From contig NC_015865.1 of the NCBI RefSeq assembly GCF_000221185.1, forward strand, positions 1,240,001 to 1,304,000: a stretch of DNA of 64,000 nt, read 5' to 3'. The notes under the pieces are model-generated. The model ran no database searches, had not been told where the DNA came from, and saw nothing but the letters and a program-made list of their open reading frames with translations. Shown here piece by piece: positions 45,096 to 53,555 of this stretch. The stretch comes from Thermococcus sp. 4557 (GTDB taxonomy: Archaea > Methanobacteriota_B > Thermococci > Thermococcales > Thermococcaceae). The position numbers and the translations under genes are program-made. Position 1 is the stretch's first letter. Every line of letters starts with the position of its first letter.

Positions 45096-48002
45096 ATGAA
45101 AAGAGTTGCTGCAATTATAATTACTATTGCAATTATGACCGCAGCGGTGGGGTTCTGGACAGGATATGGCCAAAGTACAAATCAAAGCCGGCCGATACCC
45201 CCCACAGTAACCATAACGCTGGAAGGTAATACGCCATTTGAGATAGTAAACCCCAAAATTGTCAGAGAACAGTATCCATCCATACCTCATGTATCCTCGA
45301 CAAAAACGGCTTTCTCGTACAAACCAAAAATAGAGAAAGCCGGTATTCCCCCTGCCCCTGCAGCCGTTATCACATCATCAAAGACAACCGCCGGAAAAAG
45401 CGATCCCGGGATCAGGGAGAAACTTTCTAGACAACAGGAGACTGCGGCTCTAAGAACCGCTCCACCGGGGGGTGTGGAGGTTCTCATATACCTCGATCCG
45501 GGGTACTTTAAAGGCAGGAAGTTCAAAGAGGCATTGAGGGATATTGCAGAGCAGCTGGGAATCGCAGGAATCCGGGTTCTAGACTCAAGTGCAAACCCTA
45601 TAGTGGCCGTTATACCCAGTGAAAGCGCACTAAAAGCTGCAGAAAACATGCCCGAAATCTCGTACATACGGGAGGCAGGACGCCCATTTGCAGTTCCTGT
45701 CGCAGGAAGCGTGACGAGTCAGGGAATATTCAACGTATCCGCAGTATATGCCTGGAGGAAGGGCTACAACGGAAGCGGCGTTAAGGTCGGAGTTCTTGAC
45801 ATTCCTGATGGGGGATTCAGCAACTATCAGACGCTGGTCAGCCAGGGCGAGCTTCCTTCCAGCACCCAGCTCTACACCCCCAACGGGGCAGGCTCGAGTG
45901 TTCACGGGAGCGCGTGCGCCGAGATAGTGTACGACGTGGCACCGGGGATAGACGGCCTGTACCTGGCCACGTATGGGGACACCAAGCAGATGTACGATGC
46001 GGTGAAATGGTTCATTGACAACGGCGTCAGGGTCGTTTCCCACTCCATAAGCAACTTCGGCTGGGGACCGAGTCAGTTCGACACGGATAATGACGAGACC
46101 CCAGAGTTCTGGGATGTGTATCTGATTATAAACTACACCATCCAAAACGACGTCCTGTGGGTGAACGCGGCTGGAAACAACAGGCTCGAACACTGGGAGG
46201 GGGATTGGACGGACAACGACGGCGATGGAATACTCGACATTTACGGCACGGCGGTGGACGGTAACAGCGTAGAAGAAGACAGGGAGGGCATACAGGTCAC
46301 ACTTAACAGTGACACCTCAACAACTTTCAGGGCGTGGATAAGGTGGAGCGACTACCCCTACCCGAACGGCGGCCCAACCAACGATTTTGACGCGTACTTT
46401 GAATGTCAAAACGGAAATCAGTGGGAACTAATTGCCAAATCAGAAGATTACCAGAACGGGCAATTTGGCCAGGAACCCCTCGAGAGTATAAGCGTGGACT
46501 TAAACTCCGCAGGGCTTGCCGACGGTAACAACCACTACTGCCGGCTGTACATTAAGAAATACAACGCCCCAGACTCCGACCAGATGCACTTCGACGTCTG
46601 GTGGGATGGGGTAGCCGGATACTGGTACAGTTACGGTGGCGACAGCACCTATAATCCAGTGGTCAAAGAGGGCAGCGTGACACCCCCGGCAGACCACCCG
46701 AATGTTCTCGCGGTGGGTGCAGTTAACTGGACCGACACCTCTAAACTGGAGTGGTTCTCCTCAGAGGGGCCGGCGTACAACTCATACCTGAGAAGTGGCC
46801 AGTGGCTCAAACCCAATGTCGTTGCGCCTGACTGGGTATCAACGGCCAGCTACGGAGCTTTCTCCGGAACATCTGCAGCAGCACCCCACGCGGCAGGAGT
46901 TGCAGCCCTGGTGCTGAGCGCAAAGTCAAGCCTGAGCCAGCGCGACGTATGGGCCATACTTCAGCTCACAGCGAAGGACGTGAACGAAACAGGCATCGAC
47001 TACAACACCGGCTACGGCCTCGTGAACGCGAGCGATGCAACACCCCAATATCTCTCCTGGAAGTACCCGACTCCAGAGAACGGGGCAAGGATAGATGAGG
47101 CCAGCGTTGTAATCAACATCACGTCACTGTTCAAATCCCTTAAGGAGAGCAATCTAACGGTCAACAATAACGATTACACAATGAACCCCATGGATTCCAC
47201 CAACAAGTCCTGGAGTTTCCAGCTGAACAACCTCCCTAACGGAGAGTACGTCTACAACGCCACCACAAGGGACTCCTTCAGGGTATGGATCGTCAGGACG
47301 GGCAGCAGGAAGTTCTACGTGGATTTAGGAGAGAAAACCGCGCAGGAGGGCATAGACGGCGACCCTGCTTCCGGAGGATGGGCGAGCGATCAGATCGTCT
47401 CACCCGGAACGAGCACCGTGATAAACGGGGTCTTCGTGTGGAAGGATTCAGACGACGGAGGCTTCACCTCATCGTGTACAGGCAAGACGTACGACATAAA
47501 AGGTCTCCAGCTCCGGGCAGATGGAGATTACATCTACGTGATGGTCAATCTATCGGAGATACCGAACTACGGAAAGCCCCCGACACCACTTGTTGGAGTT
47601 GGATTCGATGTTAATAATGACGGAAACCTCGACTACTACGCATACGCATTCCTTGACAAGGTTGGTGTCTCTGCTGGAAGTGCCGAGTTCCTGGACATCT
47701 ACGACACCGATTGGAACAACGTTGCCGCCAATGACCCGGACTCCGTGTTCGTGGCCGGCGGCAACGTCATAGAGATGCAGATCCCGCGCGCCTCTATTGG
47801 AAACCCCAACGGACAGATAGGAATATCTGCCCAGGTCTATGAGGGGCTTGGAGCGGGAAGGATATGCTCCGGCAGTGACTACATGACCGACAACGGGAAC
47901 ACGGTAACGACGGTTGACCTAGCGAGCGTTCCCTTTTTCTCCAGCGTAATGATGCTTGCGCTGATAGTCCTGGGACTCTCGATGTACTTCAGAAAACTCT
48001 GA
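45096..48002 (+). CDS. Secreted subtilisin-like serine protease (S8) with C-terminal membrane anchor
   Basis: 968 residues: signal peptide (RVAAIIITIAIMTAAVGFW), a propeptide-like region to about 205, and a catalytic domain. The triad is Asp235 (VLDIPDGG), His270 (VHGSACAE) and Ser593 (GTSAAAPHAAG); WVNAAGNN gives the oxyanion Asn. A large insertion between His and Ser carries an extra beta domain (about 375-535). A C-terminal beta domain (YVDLGEKTA..., about 740-940) leads to a final helix VMMLALIVLGLSMYF with RKL, an anchor. The His motif VHGSA rather than the classic HGTxVAG is unusual. Confidence 0.9.
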   Translation: MKRVAAIIITIAIMTAAVGFWTGYGQSTNQSRPIPPTVTITLEGNTPFEIVNPKIVREQYPSIPHVSSTKTAFSYKPKIEKAGIPPAPAAVITSSKTTAGKSDPGIREKLSRQQETAALRTAPPGGVEVLIYLDPGYFKGRKFKEALRDIAEQLGIAGIRVLDSSANPIVAVIPSESALKAAENMPEISYIREAGRPFAVPVAGSVTSQGIFNVSAVYAWRKGYNGSGVKVGVLDIPDGGFSNYQTLVSQGELPSSTQLYTPNGAGSSVHGSACAEIVYDVAPGIDGLYLATYGDTKQMYDAVKWFIDNGVRVVSHSISNFGWGPSQFDTDNDETPEFWDVYLIINYTIQNDVLWVNAAGNNRLEHWEGDWTDNDGDGILDIYGTAVDGNSVEEDREGIQVTLNSDTSTTFRAWIRWSDYPYPNGGPTNDFDAYFECQNGNQWELIAKSEDYQNGQFGQEPLESISVDLNSAGLADGNNHYCRLYIKKYNAPDSDQMHFDVWWDGVAGYWYSYGGDSTYNPVVKEGSVTPPADHPNVLAVGAVNWTDTSKLEWFSSEGPAYNSYLRSGQWLKPNVVAPDWVSTASYGAFSGTSAAAPHAAGVAALVLSAKSSLSQRDVWAILQLTAKDVNETGIDYNTGYGLVNASDATPQYLSWKYPTPENGARIDEASVVINITSLFKSLKESNLTVNNNDYTMNPMDSTNKSWSFQLNNLPNGEYVYNATTRDSFRVWIVRTGSRKFYVDLGEKTAQEGIDGDPASGGWASDQIVSPGTSTVINGVFVWKDSDDGGFTSSCTGKTYDIKGLQLRADGDYIYVMVNLSEIPNYGKPPTPLVGVGFDVNNDGNLDYYAYAFLDKVGVSAGSAEFLDIYDTDWNNVAANDPDSVFVAGGNVIEMQIPRASIGNPNGQIGISAQVYEGLGAGRICSGSDYMTDNGNTVTTVDLASVPFFSSVMMLALIVLGLSMYFRKL

Positions 48003-48047: not shown

Positions 48048-50006
48048 TTAGAGCTCCCTGAACCTCAGTCTGAACCTCAGCTCCCCATCAACCGGCAGGA
48101 GGACGGTGTAGCTGACGCCCTGCTGCACGAAGTCCCAGCCGGCTTCGCTCTGGCTGAGGGTCTTTATCGGATACTTCCACACTCTCGCCTTTTTGTCGAG
48201 CTCCACCGCCACCCTTCCGATACCGTATGGGTCGTTCACCTCGAACTTCTCAGCCTCGAACTCAGCCGGCTCCTCCATGACGCTGTGGACGGCAAGGTTG
48301 AGCTCGACGCCGAAGAGGGCCTTTGCGTCACTCCTCACGGTGTAGTCCACCACGAAGCCATCCTCAGTCAGGTGGAAGGTCTTCTCCACCCTCGCCGGCC
48401 TTCCGGAGACAGTTCCGTCCCTCTCGAGGGTGACGCCGCCCTCAAACAGGCTGTAGTTGTAGGCACCCGTCACGAAGTCCCCAAGCTCGATGTGCCTATT
48501 GAGGCGGTACTCCTCGAGTGTCGTCTCCGGGTCAAGGAAGTGGTCCTGCAGGATGGCCCTCAGGTGATCATCGTAGGCAAGCTCGCGCCGTATCTCGTCG
48601 GGGATCTTCCTGCCGACCTCGTGTATACTCGCGACACCTTCCCCACCTTCCTCCTCCGGCGTTGCCGCCTCCGGAACCTCGTGGTAGTGCTCCCAGCGCC
48701 TCGCGAGCACGTCGTTGTAGTTGACGGCCCTCCTGCGTGAGGAGAGCTCAAAGAGAGAACCACCGTAGGCTGGCTTAAAGACGGCGTAGAAGTTCTCGTC
48801 CTCGATGAACACCTCATCGCGGCCGTCAAAGTCTATGTCGCGGACGAAACTGCCCGTGGAGGCGAAGCCGTTGGCCCTTATTATGTTCTCCCAGACCGCC
48901 CTGCGGAGGTGCGGGAGGTAAACCCCTCCGAAGACGCCGTGCCAGTAGGCGTCGTTGCACTGGGCCTTGAGGACGAACCTCCTCGCCTGAGGGTTGTCCC
49001 TCACCAGCTTGCTCACCATCAGCATCCTCTTGTGCATGTAGTTGCTCTCGGGGTACTTGAAGAAGAAGTTCTTCCATATTCCGCCCCTGACGAAGACGCG
49101 GTACTTCTCGAACTGGCCCTGTCCCTTGAGCTTTTCAACGAACTCGACGAAGAGCTTCGCCTGCTTTGCAGGGAGGGACCACTCGCTCATCTCGAAGTAG
49201 GAGGCAATGGGCAGGTAGACCAGCCCGCGGGGCTTGAACCTCGCAAGGTACTCGGAGTAAAGCGTTAGATTTATCCTCTCATCGCTCGAAATCCTGTCAA
49301 AGAACTCCCTGAGCCAGCCCTTCTCGTAAACCCACTCGTACGTCCCCGGCCAGACACCGAACTTCTCACCGTCGTCGTGGAAGACCGCGACCCTGCTCTC
49401 GTCACCGTTGTCGAGGCTGTGGAGGTACTCGACGGTCTTCTCAACGGGGCGGAACGGGATGAGGTAGCGGAGCTTCTCGTCTATCGGGAAAACGGCTATT
49501 ACTTCCCCGCCGTCCTCGGTGTAGTACGGCCAGTAAAGCTCCTCCTTGCTCAGGCCGGCGCTCATGAAGTGGTAGTCATCGACGATGACGTACTCGATTC
49601 CAGCCTCGCGGAGGCTCTTGACGAGTTCGGGCTGCCAGACGCGCTCGGTGAGCCAGACGCCCCTGGCGTCGTAGCCGAGTTTCTTCGCGAAGTCCTTGAG
49701 GAGCTTAACCTGCTCAATCCTGTCCTCCTTCGGAATGGCGGCGAGAACTGGCTCGTAGAAGCCTGCAACGACTATCTCCAGCTGCCCCTTCTTCACCAGG
49801 GAGCGGAGGAGGTCCATGTACTCGGGCCTGTTGGCATCGAGCCATTCGAGGAGGGGGCCGCTTATGTGAACCGCGGCCTTCATGTTCGGGTACTCCTCCA
49901 GAATCTCCATGAAAGGCCGGTAGGACCTATCGTAGGCGCTCTCGAAGACCCAGCCGAAGTTTCCGAGGGGCTGATGGTTATGAATGCCAAAGATAAAGTT
50001 CACCAT
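48048..50006 (-). CDS. 4-alpha-glucanotransferase, glycoside hydrolase family 57
   Basis: 652 residues, matching the about 659-residue Thermococcus litoralis enzyme. It transfers maltodextrin chains and can make cycloamylose. The GH57 signatures are FGIHNHQPLGNFGWV at the start, the nucleophile Glu121 in VWLTERVWQPEL and the acid/base Asp212 in AVFHDDGEKFG (91 residues apart, as in the litoralis enzyme). DUF1926-type beta domains form the C-terminal half. The longer frame to 50087 is rejected because the TGM operator lies in it and GGTGGTTGGCA precedes ATG 50006. It lacks a signal peptide, so it is cytoplasmic. Confidence 0.95.
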   Translation of the reverse strand: MVNFIFGIHNHQPLGNFGWVFESAYDRSYRPFMEILEEYPNMKAAVHISGPLLEWLDANRPEYMDLLRSLVKKGQLEIVVAGFYEPVLAAIPKEDRIEQVKLLKDFAKKLGYDARGVWLTERVWQPELVKSLREAGIEYVIVDDYHFMSAGLSKEELYWPYYTEDGGEVIAVFPIDEKLRYLIPFRPVEKTVEYLHSLDNGDESRVAVFHDDGEKFGVWPGTYEWVYEKGWLREFFDRISSDERINLTLYSEYLARFKPRGLVYLPIASYFEMSEWSLPAKQAKLFVEFVEKLKGQGQFEKYRVFVRGGIWKNFFFKYPESNYMHKRMLMVSKLVRDNPQARRFVLKAQCNDAYWHGVFGGVYLPHLRRAVWENIIRANGFASTGSFVRDIDFDGRDEVFIEDENFYAVFKPAYGGSLFELSSRRRAVNYNDVLARRWEHYHEVPEAATPEEEGGEGVASIHEVGRKIPDEIRRELAYDDHLRAILQDHFLDPETTLEEYRLNRHIELGDFVTGAYNYSLFEGGVTLERDGTVSGRPARVEKTFHLTEDGFVVDYTVRSDAKALFGVELNLAVHSVMEEPAEFEAEKFEVNDPYGIGRVAVELDKKARVWKYPIKTLSQSEAGWDFVQQGVSYTVLLPVDGELRFRLRFREL

Positions 50007-50029: not shown

Positions 50030-50046
50030 TATCACTAGCGGTGATA
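50030..50046. promoter_or_regulatory. Thermococcales Glycolytic Motif (TGM), perfect copy
   Basis: TATCAC-TAGCG-GTGATA matches the TGM consensus TATCAC-N5-GTGATA bound by Tgr/TrmBL1. It lies between the minus-strand TATA box (50058-50071) and the glucanotransferase ATG. A downstream position is associated with repression when sugar is absent. Confidence 0.9.
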
Positions 50047-50055
50047 TGGGAAGAA

Positions 50056-50072
50056 AGGCATATAAACCTTTT
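50056..50072. promoter_or_regulatory. TATA region serving divergent promoters
   Basis: GGCATATAAACCTTT reads as TATAAA on the plus strand and as AAGGTTTATATGCC on the minus strand. It is the only good TATA candidate for either gene. Predicted starts are near 50090 (plus) and 50035 (minus), each inside a TGM or TGM-like sequence. Confidence 0.6.
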
Positions 50073-50080
50073 TCTCCTAA

Positions 50081-50099
50081 TACTCACTACGGGTGATTA
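50081..50099. promoter_or_regulatory. Imperfect second TGM-like element
   Basis: TACTCAC-TACGG-GTGATTA keeps TCAC-N5-GTGA of the TGM core but differs at outer bases. It sits downstream of the TATA region in the direction of the secreted-protein gene, mirroring the perfect copy on the other side. Confidence 0.5.
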
Positions 50100-50141
50100 C
50101 CGTACACCCCTGGGGATTCACCCCCGCTGGAGGTGGACAAT

Positions 50142-53100
50142 GTGAAGAAAACGGCGGCAGTTATGTTAACCTTCGTTCTGTTGCTTGGTTTAGTGCCCAC
50201 GTTTAGCGGCCTCGTCAGCGCGATGTACGGCACTAAAATCATAGACGGCGACCTAAGTGACTGGACCTCCGCAGACATTATCTCAACTGGTCGGGACAAT
50301 GGACAGGACGGAGCCAACCTCGACAGGCTCTACGTTTCATGGGACGACCAGTACCTCTACATAGCAATCAAGACCAACAACACGGGAAGCTGGGACGTCG
50401 CCTACGGAATAGGAATAGACGTGGACCCCGGAACCGGAAACGGCTACGTATCCGGCGGCGATTCGTGGGGAAGGAGCGTCGAGTTCTCGAACGGCTTTGC
50501 CCCGGACTACGAGATTTACTTCTGGTGGGGCTGGGACAGCGGAATGGGTACCGACAACTTCAACACTTACACAGGAAGCGGGTGGAACTACAACAGCATC
50601 TCCGGCGTCGGCGGAAGCTTCGCCTACACCGGCGACACCTCAACCGGCCTTCAGACGGTCGAGATAAAGATACCGTGGAGTACCCTGGGCGGAAAGCCGG
50701 AGAAGATAGCCGTGATGGCGTGGGTCACCGGTAGCGGTGGTTCGGCCGTGGACAGTCTGCCGGTAGACCCGGCGATAGACTACTCCAACATAGGCGGCGA
50801 GTGGGGAGACACCGACACCTTCACCAGCATGGCCGTCATCTACGTCGCTCCGAAGACCATAGACGGTGACCTGAGCGACTGGAGCGACGCCGACCTCATG
50901 GTGGTCGGAAAGGACAACGGACTTGCCGGGGCCAACATGGATAGGATGTACGTCTCCTGGGACGACCAGTACCTCTACATAGCAATCAAGACCAACAACA
51001 CGGGGAGCTGGGACATCGCCTACGGAATAGGAATAGACGTGGACCCCGGAACCGGAAACGGCTACGTATCCGGCGGCGATTCGTGGGGCAGGAGTGTTGA
51101 GTTCGCCAACGGATTCGCGGTCGATTACGAACTCTACTTCTGGTGGGGCTGGGACAGCGGAATGGGTACCGACAACTTCAACACTTACACAGGAAGCGGG
51201 TGGAACTACGGAAGCCTGGCCGACGTCGGGGCCAAGTTTGCCTACACCGGCGACACCTCAACCGGCCTTCAGACCCTCGAGATAGCCATTCCCTGGAGCG
51301 CCCTCGGCGGCAAGCGCTCCAGGTTTGCCGTCATGTCGTGGATAACCGGAAGCGGCGGCTCCGCCGTGGACAGTCTGCCGGTAGACCCGGCGATAGACTA
51401 CTCCAACATAGGCGGCGAGTGGGGAGACACCGACACCTTCACCAGCATGCTCGTCGGCGAGTGGTTCCTCATGGCTGACCTGACCGTCGGCGTGAGCGGA
51501 CCCGGGGTGGTCGGCCTCAACAGGAACGCCGTCTACAACGTCACCGTCAGGAACGAGGGCTCCCTGCCGGCCCAGAACGCCAGCGTTGAGGTCTACGTGA
51601 ACGACACCCTCCTCGCCAACCGGACGGTTGACCTTGGAGCCGGCGAGAGCCGGTGGTTCACCTTCACATGGAAGCCGAACGCCACCGGGCTTTACACGAT
51701 AAGGGCCGTCGTGGACGAGGAGAACGCCATACCCGAGGCCAGCGAGAGCAACAACGAGTTCACCATGAACGTACAGGTCGTCTGGGTGGGCAACATAGAC
51801 GTGGACGGTAACCCCGACGACTGGATAAGCCCCGAGATAGCTCCGAACTCATACACGGTCCAGGACGGCTACTTCATCTGGAGGGACGCCGAGAACGACC
51901 AGAGAACCGATAAGGACCCGTACCTTCCGGGTGGAAGCTCCTCCCACGCCGACATCACCGAGGTGGGCGTCACCAAGGACGACCGCTACGTCTACTTCCT
52001 CTTCAAGTTCAAGGACATGAGCAACATCAAGATAGGCGACAACGGAGCTACCTTCATAGCGGTGCCGATAGACTACAAGAATGGCGGGGGCGAGACCTTC
52101 GCGGGCAGGATGGACACCAGGACGGTCATAGCCTGGGACATTCAGATGGCCATAAACCTCGGAGGAAAGCAGTACGTCGGCCAGACCAAGGCCACAGCCG
52201 CCGCCGGCGATAGCCTGACCTCACTGCTCTACTTCATCGACCCGAGCGGAAATATCATGAAGGTCGACGGCGCGATGGTCGGAATTGACCTCGAGAAGAA
52301 CGCCGTTGAGGTCAGGGTTCCGGTTGGCGTCTTTGAGGGCGCCAAGGAGTTCAACTTCCAGGTCGCGACCGGCTTCAGCTACGGTGAGGGCGTCTGGAAC
52401 TTCGGAAACGACTTCGCCGACGACGGAATAAGCGACATCGTCGATACCATAAGCACCGACTCCGCCGTCAAGGAGCTGGCCGACAACGTGCCCGACTACT
52501 ACGTCCGCGTAAGAATGGACAACATCATCGAGGGCGGAAGCGTCGTCTCCGTCAAGCTCCAGAGGCTCATGGCCTTCCAGAACGCCTTCGTGATGCACAA
52601 CAGGTACTACGGAGTCAGGCACTTCGAGAGGGACTACGATAGGTACACCGAGCTCGACAACCAGCTCAGGAGCATGCCTCTGCCGGAGGACATGAAGGAC
52701 AGGCTGGATGAGATAGAGAACGAGATCATGGACCTCCTCAGGCTCTACAACGAGGGCAAGGAGCTCATAGATAGCCCGAACTACGCCTTCGGCGCCTCGC
52801 TCAAGATATACCGCGCCTACACCGGCCTCAAGAAGATCGTCAGCGAGATGGAGGCCATGCTCGAGAAGGCCCAGAGCGGTGAGCTGGAGAGGGAGAAGTA
52901 TATGGAGGAGCTCGCCAAGAACCTCACCAAGACCATAGATGGCAACCTCGACGACTGGAGCGTCGAGCCAGTGGCGGTGGATGAGACCGGCTACGGCCAG
53001 GACGGAGCGAACCTCAAGGCCATCTACGTCGACTACGACGACCAGTTCCTCTACATAGCGATAACCACCGAGAACAAGGCCTCCTGGAGGGTCGCCTACG

Positions 53101-53555
53101 GCATAGCCCTCGACTACAAGGACGGCGGCTACACCACCGGCCAGGACAGCTGGGCCAGGAAGGTGAGCTTCAGCAGGGGCGTCGATGCACAGCTCTACGT
53201 CTTCTGGAACGGCGAGTTCTTCGGCGACAAGGGAACCAGCAACATAACCAGCGCCCAGTTCATGCTCTGGAACGACGGAAGCTGGAGGTACGAGGAGCTC
53301 AAGTGGGTGGGCTTCTACGCCTACACCGGAGGGGCCGAGAACGGACTGCAGACACTTGAGATAGCGATTCCATGGGAAGCCCTCGGCGTTAAGCCGGGAG
53401 AGATAAACGTGGTCGCCTACGTCACGGGACAGGGTGCCGGCGATTCGGCCGTTGACTCACTGCCGCTCCAGGACGCCGTCAGGGACAACGACCCAGGCCA
53501 GGAGTGGGGTGACGCCGATACCTTTACCCAGTTCGCGACGGTCACGATAGAGTGA
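50142..53555 (+). CDS. Large secreted protein with CBM9/glucodextranase-C-like repeats, no catalytic domain
   Basis: 1137 residues. The signal peptide (KKTAAVMLTFVLLLGLVP) ends near residue 27. Two near-identical 206-residue units (about 33-238 and 239-444), each with DGDLSDW and SWDDQYLYIAIKTNNTGSW, are followed by a CARDB-like domain (about 450-550). A third distinct beta domain comes next (DVDGNPDDWISPEI, about 555-785). A helical segment (about 800-925) leads to a last repeat (TIDGNLDDWSVEP, about 930-1137). These resemble the C-terminal binding parts of amylopullulanases and glucodextranase. No GH catalytic motif is seen. GGAGGTG precedes GTG 50142. Confidence 0.82.
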   Translation: MKKTAAVMLTFVLLLGLVPTFSGLVSAMYGTKIIDGDLSDWTSADIISTGRDNGQDGANLDRLYVSWDDQYLYIAIKTNNTGSWDVAYGIGIDVDPGTGNGYVSGGDSWGRSVEFSNGFAPDYEIYFWWGWDSGMGTDNFNTYTGSGWNYNSISGVGGSFAYTGDTSTGLQTVEIKIPWSTLGGKPEKIAVMAWVTGSGGSAVDSLPVDPAIDYSNIGGEWGDTDTFTSMAVIYVAPKTIDGDLSDWSDADLMVVGKDNGLAGANMDRMYVSWDDQYLYIAIKTNNTGSWDIAYGIGIDVDPGTGNGYVSGGDSWGRSVEFANGFAVDYELYFWWGWDSGMGTDNFNTYTGSGWNYGSLADVGAKFAYTGDTSTGLQTLEIAIPWSALGGKRSRFAVMSWITGSGGSAVDSLPVDPAIDYSNIGGEWGDTDTFTSMLVGEWFLMADLTVGVSGPGVVGLNRNAVYNVTVRNEGSLPAQNASVEVYVNDTLLANRTVDLGAGESRWFTFTWKPNATGLYTIRAVVDEENAIPEASESNNEFTMNVQVVWVGNIDVDGNPDDWISPEIAPNSYTVQDGYFIWRDAENDQRTDKDPYLPGGSSSHADITEVGVTKDDRYVYFLFKFKDMSNIKIGDNGATFIAVPIDYKNGGGETFAGRMDTRTVIAWDIQMAINLGGKQYVGQTKATAAAGDSLTSLLYFIDPSGNIMKVDGAMVGIDLEKNAVEVRVPVGVFEGAKEFNFQVATGFSYGEGVWNFGNDFADDGISDIVDTISTDSAVKELADNVPDYYVRVRMDNIIEGGSVVSVKLQRLMAFQNAFVMHNRYYGVRHFERDYDRYTELDNQLRSMPLPEDMKDRLDEIENEIMDLLRLYNEGKELIDSPNYAFGASLKIYRAYTGLKKIVSEMEAMLEKAQSGELEREKYMEELAKNLTKTIDGNLDDWSVEPVAVDETGYGQDGANLKAIYVDYDDQFLYIAITTENKASWRVAYGIALDYKDGGYTTGQDSWARKVSFSRGVDAQLYVFWNGEFFGDKGTSNITSAQFMLWNDGSWRYEELKWVGFYAYTGGAENGLQTLEIAIPWEALGVKPGEINVVAYVTGQGAGDSAVDSLPLQDAVRDNDPGQEWGDADTFTQFATVTIE
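50238..51473 (+). repeat. Tandem 618-bp in-frame repeat (two copies)
   Basis: Blocks repeat at an exact offset of 618 bp, for example TCTGGTGGGGCTGGGACAGC at 50521 and 51139. Long stretches differ at only a few bases. This points to recent duplication or ongoing gene conversion. Confidence 0.9.

Follow-up and report, generated by a model that had tools for sequence, protein, structure and literature searches.

A shared BRE-TATA-BRE promoter flanked by mirror TGM sites probably places a 4-alpha-glucanotransferase gene and a secreted-protein gene of Thermococcus sp. 4557 under joint Tgr/TrmBL1 control

A 64-kb stretch (hereafter the window, to which all unprefixed coordinates refer) of the complete 2.01-Mb genome of Thermococcus sp. 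4557 contains two head-to-head genes that share a single TATA element, with a TGM palindrome on either side of it. The data presented below make it probable that this intergenic region is a bidirectional BRE-TATA-BRE promoter, with a TGM over each transcription start, through which Tgr/TrmBL1 controls both genes jointly in response to maltodextrin.

The minus-strand gene, at 48048..50006, encodes a GH57 4-alpha-glucanotransferase of 652 aa, with its ATG at 50006. Upstream of it lies TGM1, TATCACTAGCGGTGATA, at 50030..50046, which matches TATCACN5GTGATA with 0 mismatches, as the initial annotation had stated; no other site in the window is perfect. Its centre, 50038, is close to the expected start of the minus transcript. 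The core between the two TGMs, AAGAAAGG-CATATAAAC-CTTTTTC, comprises an A-rich BRE, a TATA readable both ways, as had also been claimed, and a mirror-oriented second BRE, so that an A-rich BRE stands on each side of a single TATA. The plus-facing BRE AAGAAAGG is located at 50051..50058 (+), on the basis of conservation counts and the sequence logo; the shared TATA (CATATAAAC on the plus strand, TTTATATG on the minus strand) at 50059..50067, with its centre at ~50063; and the minus-facing BRE, GAAAAAGG on the minus strand, at 50067..50074 (-), on the basis of the sequence and the logo. TGM2, the imperfect ACTCACTACGGGTGATT, was found at 50082..50098, rather than at 50081-50099 as first annotated, and its centre, 50090, is close to the expected start of the plus transcript.

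The centres of TGM1 and TGM2 are 52 bp apart. Each is 25-27 bp from the TATA centre and, in agreement with the initial annotation, lies downstream of TATA for its own gene. Seen from the opposite gene, each also lies upstream of TATA, a position that is tied to activation. Beyond TGM2, at a distance of 20 bp, is the conserved GTACACCCCTGGGGATT (50102..50118), which may be a degenerate TGM3 or another (leader) element, and which occupies the place of a strong third TGM in related genera. The Shine-Dalgarno sequence GGAGGTGG of the secreted-protein gene follows at 50130..50137 (+), and the gene itself, probably a member of the PF1109 family, extends over 50142..53555 (+), encoding 1137 aa from a GTG start at 50142. 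No second TATA-like element was seen in the 75-bp interval between the TATA and this GTG.

TGM2 has 3 mismatches to TATCACN5GTGATA, with its outer positions lost, and judged by mismatch count alone it is not significant, as 13 three-mismatch sites were found vs 14.7 expected. When the window was scored instead with a weight matrix derived from 20 further TGMs of the same genome, TGM2 took rank 3 among 63,984 positions, which upholds the site itself as first annotated. A score of 11 or more within a 13-position slot was reached in 0.06% of slots, and a mirror site 45-57 bp away was present at 0 of the 13 other TGM promoters in this genome. A strict pair pattern, TCACN5GTGA-N34-42-TCACN5GTGA, matched in 26 of 94 related genomes, while the reversed pattern, used as a control, gave 0 matches; all but three of the matching places were this promoter. 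It should be added that the right half of the TGM, GGTGAT, resembles a Shine-Dalgarno sequence, and that this can inflate matches near start codons. The affinity of TGM2 may be low, because the site is weak in the window's group.

The distribution of the promoter elements was compared across the Thermococcaceae. The glucanotransferase gene occurs in 83 of 94 genomes and the secreted-protein gene in 55. TGM1 was present in 73 of the 79 glucanotransferase promoters that were recovered, perfect in 72 and with 1 mismatch in the remaining genome (G012). Among these 73 promoters, a TGM2-like site was found in 44 of the 45 with the secreted gene adjacent vs 4 of the 28 without it (Fisher p=4e-14), and in nearly all genomes with the secreted-protein gene TGM1 and TGM2 are spaced 50-52 bp apart. 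The four promoters that keep a site at the mirror position without the gene look like recent gene losses. On the glucanotransferase tree, the neighbouring gene switched at least 12 times, counted over supported branches; TGM2 tracked ~9 of the changes and opposed 0 (p ~0.004).

The absence of TGM2 after deletion of the secreted gene is partly trivial, because its DNA went too. For this reason the plus-facing BRE, which lies across the TATA on the glucanotransferase side and need not be lost with the gene, was examined as well. It is present in 45 of 45 promoters with the secreted gene vs 7 of 28 without it (p=1e-12), with independent pairs at 7.7:0. Since this BRE decays where the gene is absent, the plus direction of the shared TATA appears to be retained mainly while the gene is present. 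Taken together, these sequence comparisons support the view that TGM2 and the plus-facing BRE have persisted or disappeared together with the secreted gene, over independent gains or losses.

The layout on the side of the secreted gene varies between genera. The window's group has TGM2 at +52, and the conserved GTACACCC.TGGGGA, not a good TGM, occurs 20 bp later; the true Shine-Dalgarno sequence lies 30-50 bp from TGM2, of which the left half, TCAC/TATCAC, is conserved too and is not Shine-Dalgarno-like. In other genera a weaker site is found at +50 (TATCAACAAGGGTGAAC) and a strong one at +70 (TATCACCCGGGGTGAAT, TGM3), the right half of the latter doubling as the Shine-Dalgarno sequence, so that two TGMs stand downstream of TATA for the secreted-protein gene. 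Four genus-g3 genomes have the secreted gene elsewhere, with one TGM ~29 bp beyond its own TATA, and in G004, a genome without Tgr, no TGM was seen at the secreted-gene promoter. A second mirror-TGM promoter, with TTTAAAAA at its middle, was noted at L208 (G020:C1:1052636), G027:C1:1302410 and L226 (G072:C1:997031). It is flanked by an ORF of ~31 codons on the minus strand (MTPMMYVWLITVEREARQKLQKKTLKPEDAF in L208, by eye) and a pelota-like gene on the plus strand, and the half-TGM adjoining the short ORF serves in addition as the Shine-Dalgarno sequence of that ORF.

The genome encodes Tgr, a 340-aa protein with both TrmB domains, which adjoins a maltodextrin transport operon containing an amylopullulanase gene. 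Tgr of T. kodakarensis has the same position beside the maltodextrin operon (PMC4158304). In genomes at least 90% complete, TGM1 was found in 66 of 69 with Tgr vs 0 of 3 without (p=3e-4). Further TGM sites of this genome precede genes for amylase, ADP-PFK, glucose-6-phosphate isomerase, branching enzyme and phosphorylase. The promoter shares with the Thermococcales glycolytic regulon the palindrome, the position downstream of BRE/TATA and the encoded regulator. With TGM downstream of TATA, TrmBL1 repressed 9 of 9 templates in vitro, and the P. furiosus genes PF0272 (a proposed 4-alpha-glucanotransferase) and PF1109/PF1110 are both TrmBL1 ChIP-seq targets with a downstream TGM (PMC4706686). A TGM upstream of TATA has been linked to activation, and opposite signs have been proposed for PF1538 and PF1539 from the single TGM at those genes (PMC4706686). 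The initial annotation's assignment of shared Tgr-type control gains from the conserved TGMs and BRE that track the gene, from the encoded Tgr and from the lack of TGM1 where Tgr is lacking; it had overlooked the upstream, activating position of each site. Two other promoters of this genome have TGMs upstream of TATA, an activating layout, before genes that read like those for fructose-1,6-bisphosphatase and phosphoglycerate kinase (L193 ~1009 and L201 ~1009). At the maltodextrin-operon promoter (L188 6920-6980, also L015), two TGM-like sites lie downstream of TATA, at a spacing of 30 bp.

The domain content of the two products was also examined. The glucanotransferase has the GH57 catalytic domain and both glucanotransferase-type C-terminal domains (PF03065, PF09094 and PF09095), all scoring far above the cut-off. 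The 1137-aa protein, whose secretion is predicted from an N-terminal signal-like helix only, consists of a signal peptide, two N-terminal CBM74/CBM9-like repeats, a CARDB domain, a helical part and a C-terminal repeat, in that order. No confident Pfam or NCBIfam family was assigned to the repeats, so a structure model was needed. The first repeat (50220..50849 (+); AlphaFold2 pLDDT 91) matched the CBM74 of Sas6 with a Z score of 18.3 (2.8 A over 196 residues, 27% identity), compared with 11.8 for the next match, CBM9, and a background of 7.9; the predicted model has the CBM74 core fold. A profile search with the repeats matched CBM74 and CBM9 weakly (E 0.003 each). At ~210 residues the repeat is ~110 residues shorter than the 321-residue stretch of CBM74 that it matched. 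CBM74 is a resistant-starch-binding module (PMC13271388).

It is apparent that the secreted protein, which had been described as uncharacterised, has a relative in P. furiosus PF1109, a secreted protein, starch-binding as described, that is up on starch (PMC3824201). The CARDB domain at 51459..51788 (+) matched the PF1109 structure 3idu with a Z score of 19.8 and 46-47% identity (residues 440-549 vs 433-542), a comparison that covers the solved CARDB domain only; the CARDB domains of PF1109 and of the homologue in genome G009 are 68% identical. The window protein probably belongs with PF1109, a protein of the starch-binding type, and may itself bind starch. The tie to maltodextrin use that the initial annotation had proposed is strengthened by the TGM that accompanies the plus gene even where that gene is located elsewhere. 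For the family the starch link is not new: earlier work had described PF1109 as starch-binding, induced by starch and targeted by TrmBL1. The secreted protein is not named in the part of the T. barophilus secretome paper covered by our search.

Several related observations were made in and around these genes. The secreted gene is interrupted in G063:C268, apparently by a transposon gene, and is split at G087:C1:1815320-1817847; the glucanotransferase is split into two frames at G029:C1:636574-638525. In the window, a secreted S8 subtilase (968 aa) is encoded at 45096-48002 (+) by a gene that converges on that of the glucanotransferase; the C-terminal part of the subtilase reads like another DOMON/CBM9-type domain.

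In the mechanism proposed here, one TATA with a BRE on each side would permit TBP-TFB assembly in either direction, and a TGM operator would overlie each of the two transcription starts. At shared BRE-TATA-BRE promoters of P. furiosus, the transcripts start ~49-50 bp apart (PMC6640164); with TGM centres spaced 50-52 bp around a single TATA, each start is expected to fall within a TGM. Without maltodextrins, Tgr/TrmBL1 would occupy both TGMs and block RNA polymerase both ways. With maltotriose or maltose, the regulator would depart, and the intracellular glucanotransferase and the secreted protein would be made together, in competition for the one TATA. With only one TGM, repression of one gene and perhaps activation of the other would be expected, because that site is downstream of TATA for the one and upstream for the other; the sign of control is uncertain for each gene for the same reason, that a TGM upstream of TATA can activate. 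The mirror TGM2 would give both genes the same response, presumably by overriding activation from the upstream position. It is tentatively suggested, as a possibility that falls short of being likely, that this is a true two-gene bidirectional promoter in which the mirror operator has converted an opposite-sign switch like that of PF1538/PF1539 into joint repression, with the TBP-TFB site shared by competition.

Other explanations of the two sites must be weighed against joint repression. Control might be opposite, such that in the absence of sugar Tgr at TGM1 activates the plus gene and represses the glucanotransferase, TGM2 being too weak to matter. An upstream TGM does go with activation, and the single TGM of PF1538/PF1539 with opposite signs; TGM2 carries 3 mismatches, and the 25 bp between TGM1 and the TATA is like the ~20-25 bp between TGM and TATA centres at the activating-type promoters of this genome (fbp-like and pgk-like). 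This explanation is nonetheless considered unlikely, given the conservation of TGM2 at the start-site position (44/45), the increase of PF1109 on starch with a downstream TGM, the TGM downstream of TATA at the stand-alone secreted gene, and the two downstream TGMs that other genera place before it. TGM2 might also be a conserved start-site or leader element, or one resembling a Shine-Dalgarno sequence, the plus gene being outside Tgr control. The likeness of its right half, GGTGAT, to a Shine-Dalgarno sequence and the conservation of GTACACCC.TGGGGA past TGM2, though not a good TGM, are in line with this idea. It is rendered improbable by the conserved left half, which is unlike a Shine-Dalgarno sequence, by the 30-50 bp that separate the true Shine-Dalgarno sequence from TGM2 in the window's group, by the binding of TrmBL1 at P. 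furiosus PF1109 and by the missing plus-gene TGM where Tgr is missing.

Bridging of the two sites is a further possibility, in which a TrmBL1 tetramer would join TGM1 and TGM2 (52 bp, five turns, same face) and close the TATA in a small loop. TrmBL1 assembles as tetramers and octamers (PMC4158304) and the spacing is held at 50-52 bp, but that spacing follows equally from two sites tied to starts around one TATA, and a 52-bp loop would be stiff. There is thus little to expect of bridging, although it could hold together with joint repression. The least probable proposal, to which we give hardly any credence, is that plus transcription from the shared TATA represents antisense-type background, the promoter of the plus gene being elsewhere. 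It is true that at ~10% of head-to-tail P. furiosus promoters a single TATA also drives strong antisense transcription, which was judged to be non-functional (PMC6640164). Here, however, the 75 bp from TATA to start hold no other TATA-like element, and the plus-facing BRE is present in 45/45 promoters with the gene vs 7/28 without.

Comparison with known systems places joint repression in context. The TGM/TrmBL1 (Tgr) regulon of P. furiosus and T. kodakarensis (PMC4706686, PMC4158304) involves the same palindrome, regulator and class of genes, but there the targets are separate, with one TGM each, whereas the window has head-to-head genes with one TATA and two mirror TGMs. At PF1538/PF1539, TrmBL1 acts at a divergent promoter region, as predicted for the window; a single TGM with opposite effects was proposed there (PMC4706686), in contrast to the two TGMs and same sign predicted here. 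The bidirectional promoters of P. furiosus (PMC6640164) likewise carry a BRE on each side of a single TATA, with starts ~50 bp apart as predicted for the window, but their second transcript was judged to be mostly antisense noise, while the window has two conserved coding genes with a putative operator each. The extracellular starch-binding protein PF1109/PF1110 (PMC3824201) is like the window protein, for which secretion is predicted, in the place of its CARDB domain and its promoter TGM, and differs from it at the N-terminus (LYTPTPFSID vs AMYGTKIIDG). The predicted fold of the repeat is that of the CBM74 of Ruminococcus bromii Sas6 (PDB 7uwv), with the difference in length given above. No description of a paired mirror-TGM arrangement was found in a search limited to open-licence papers. 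The parts are known, and the arrangement appears to be new.

Up to now, transcription in both directions from a single archaeal TATA has chiefly been described as noise. In this promoter each direction appears to serve a conserved gene with a putative operator of its own, and the elements required for one direction decay in genomes that lack the corresponding gene. The promoter offers a compact, testable model of how the archaeal transcription machinery, which is eukaryote-like, sets the direction and sign of control. It would also connect the maltodextrin regulon to a widespread secreted protein with a predicted starch-module fold. If the two-gene bidirectional reading is true, the at least dozen changes of state within the family would constitute a natural mutant series.
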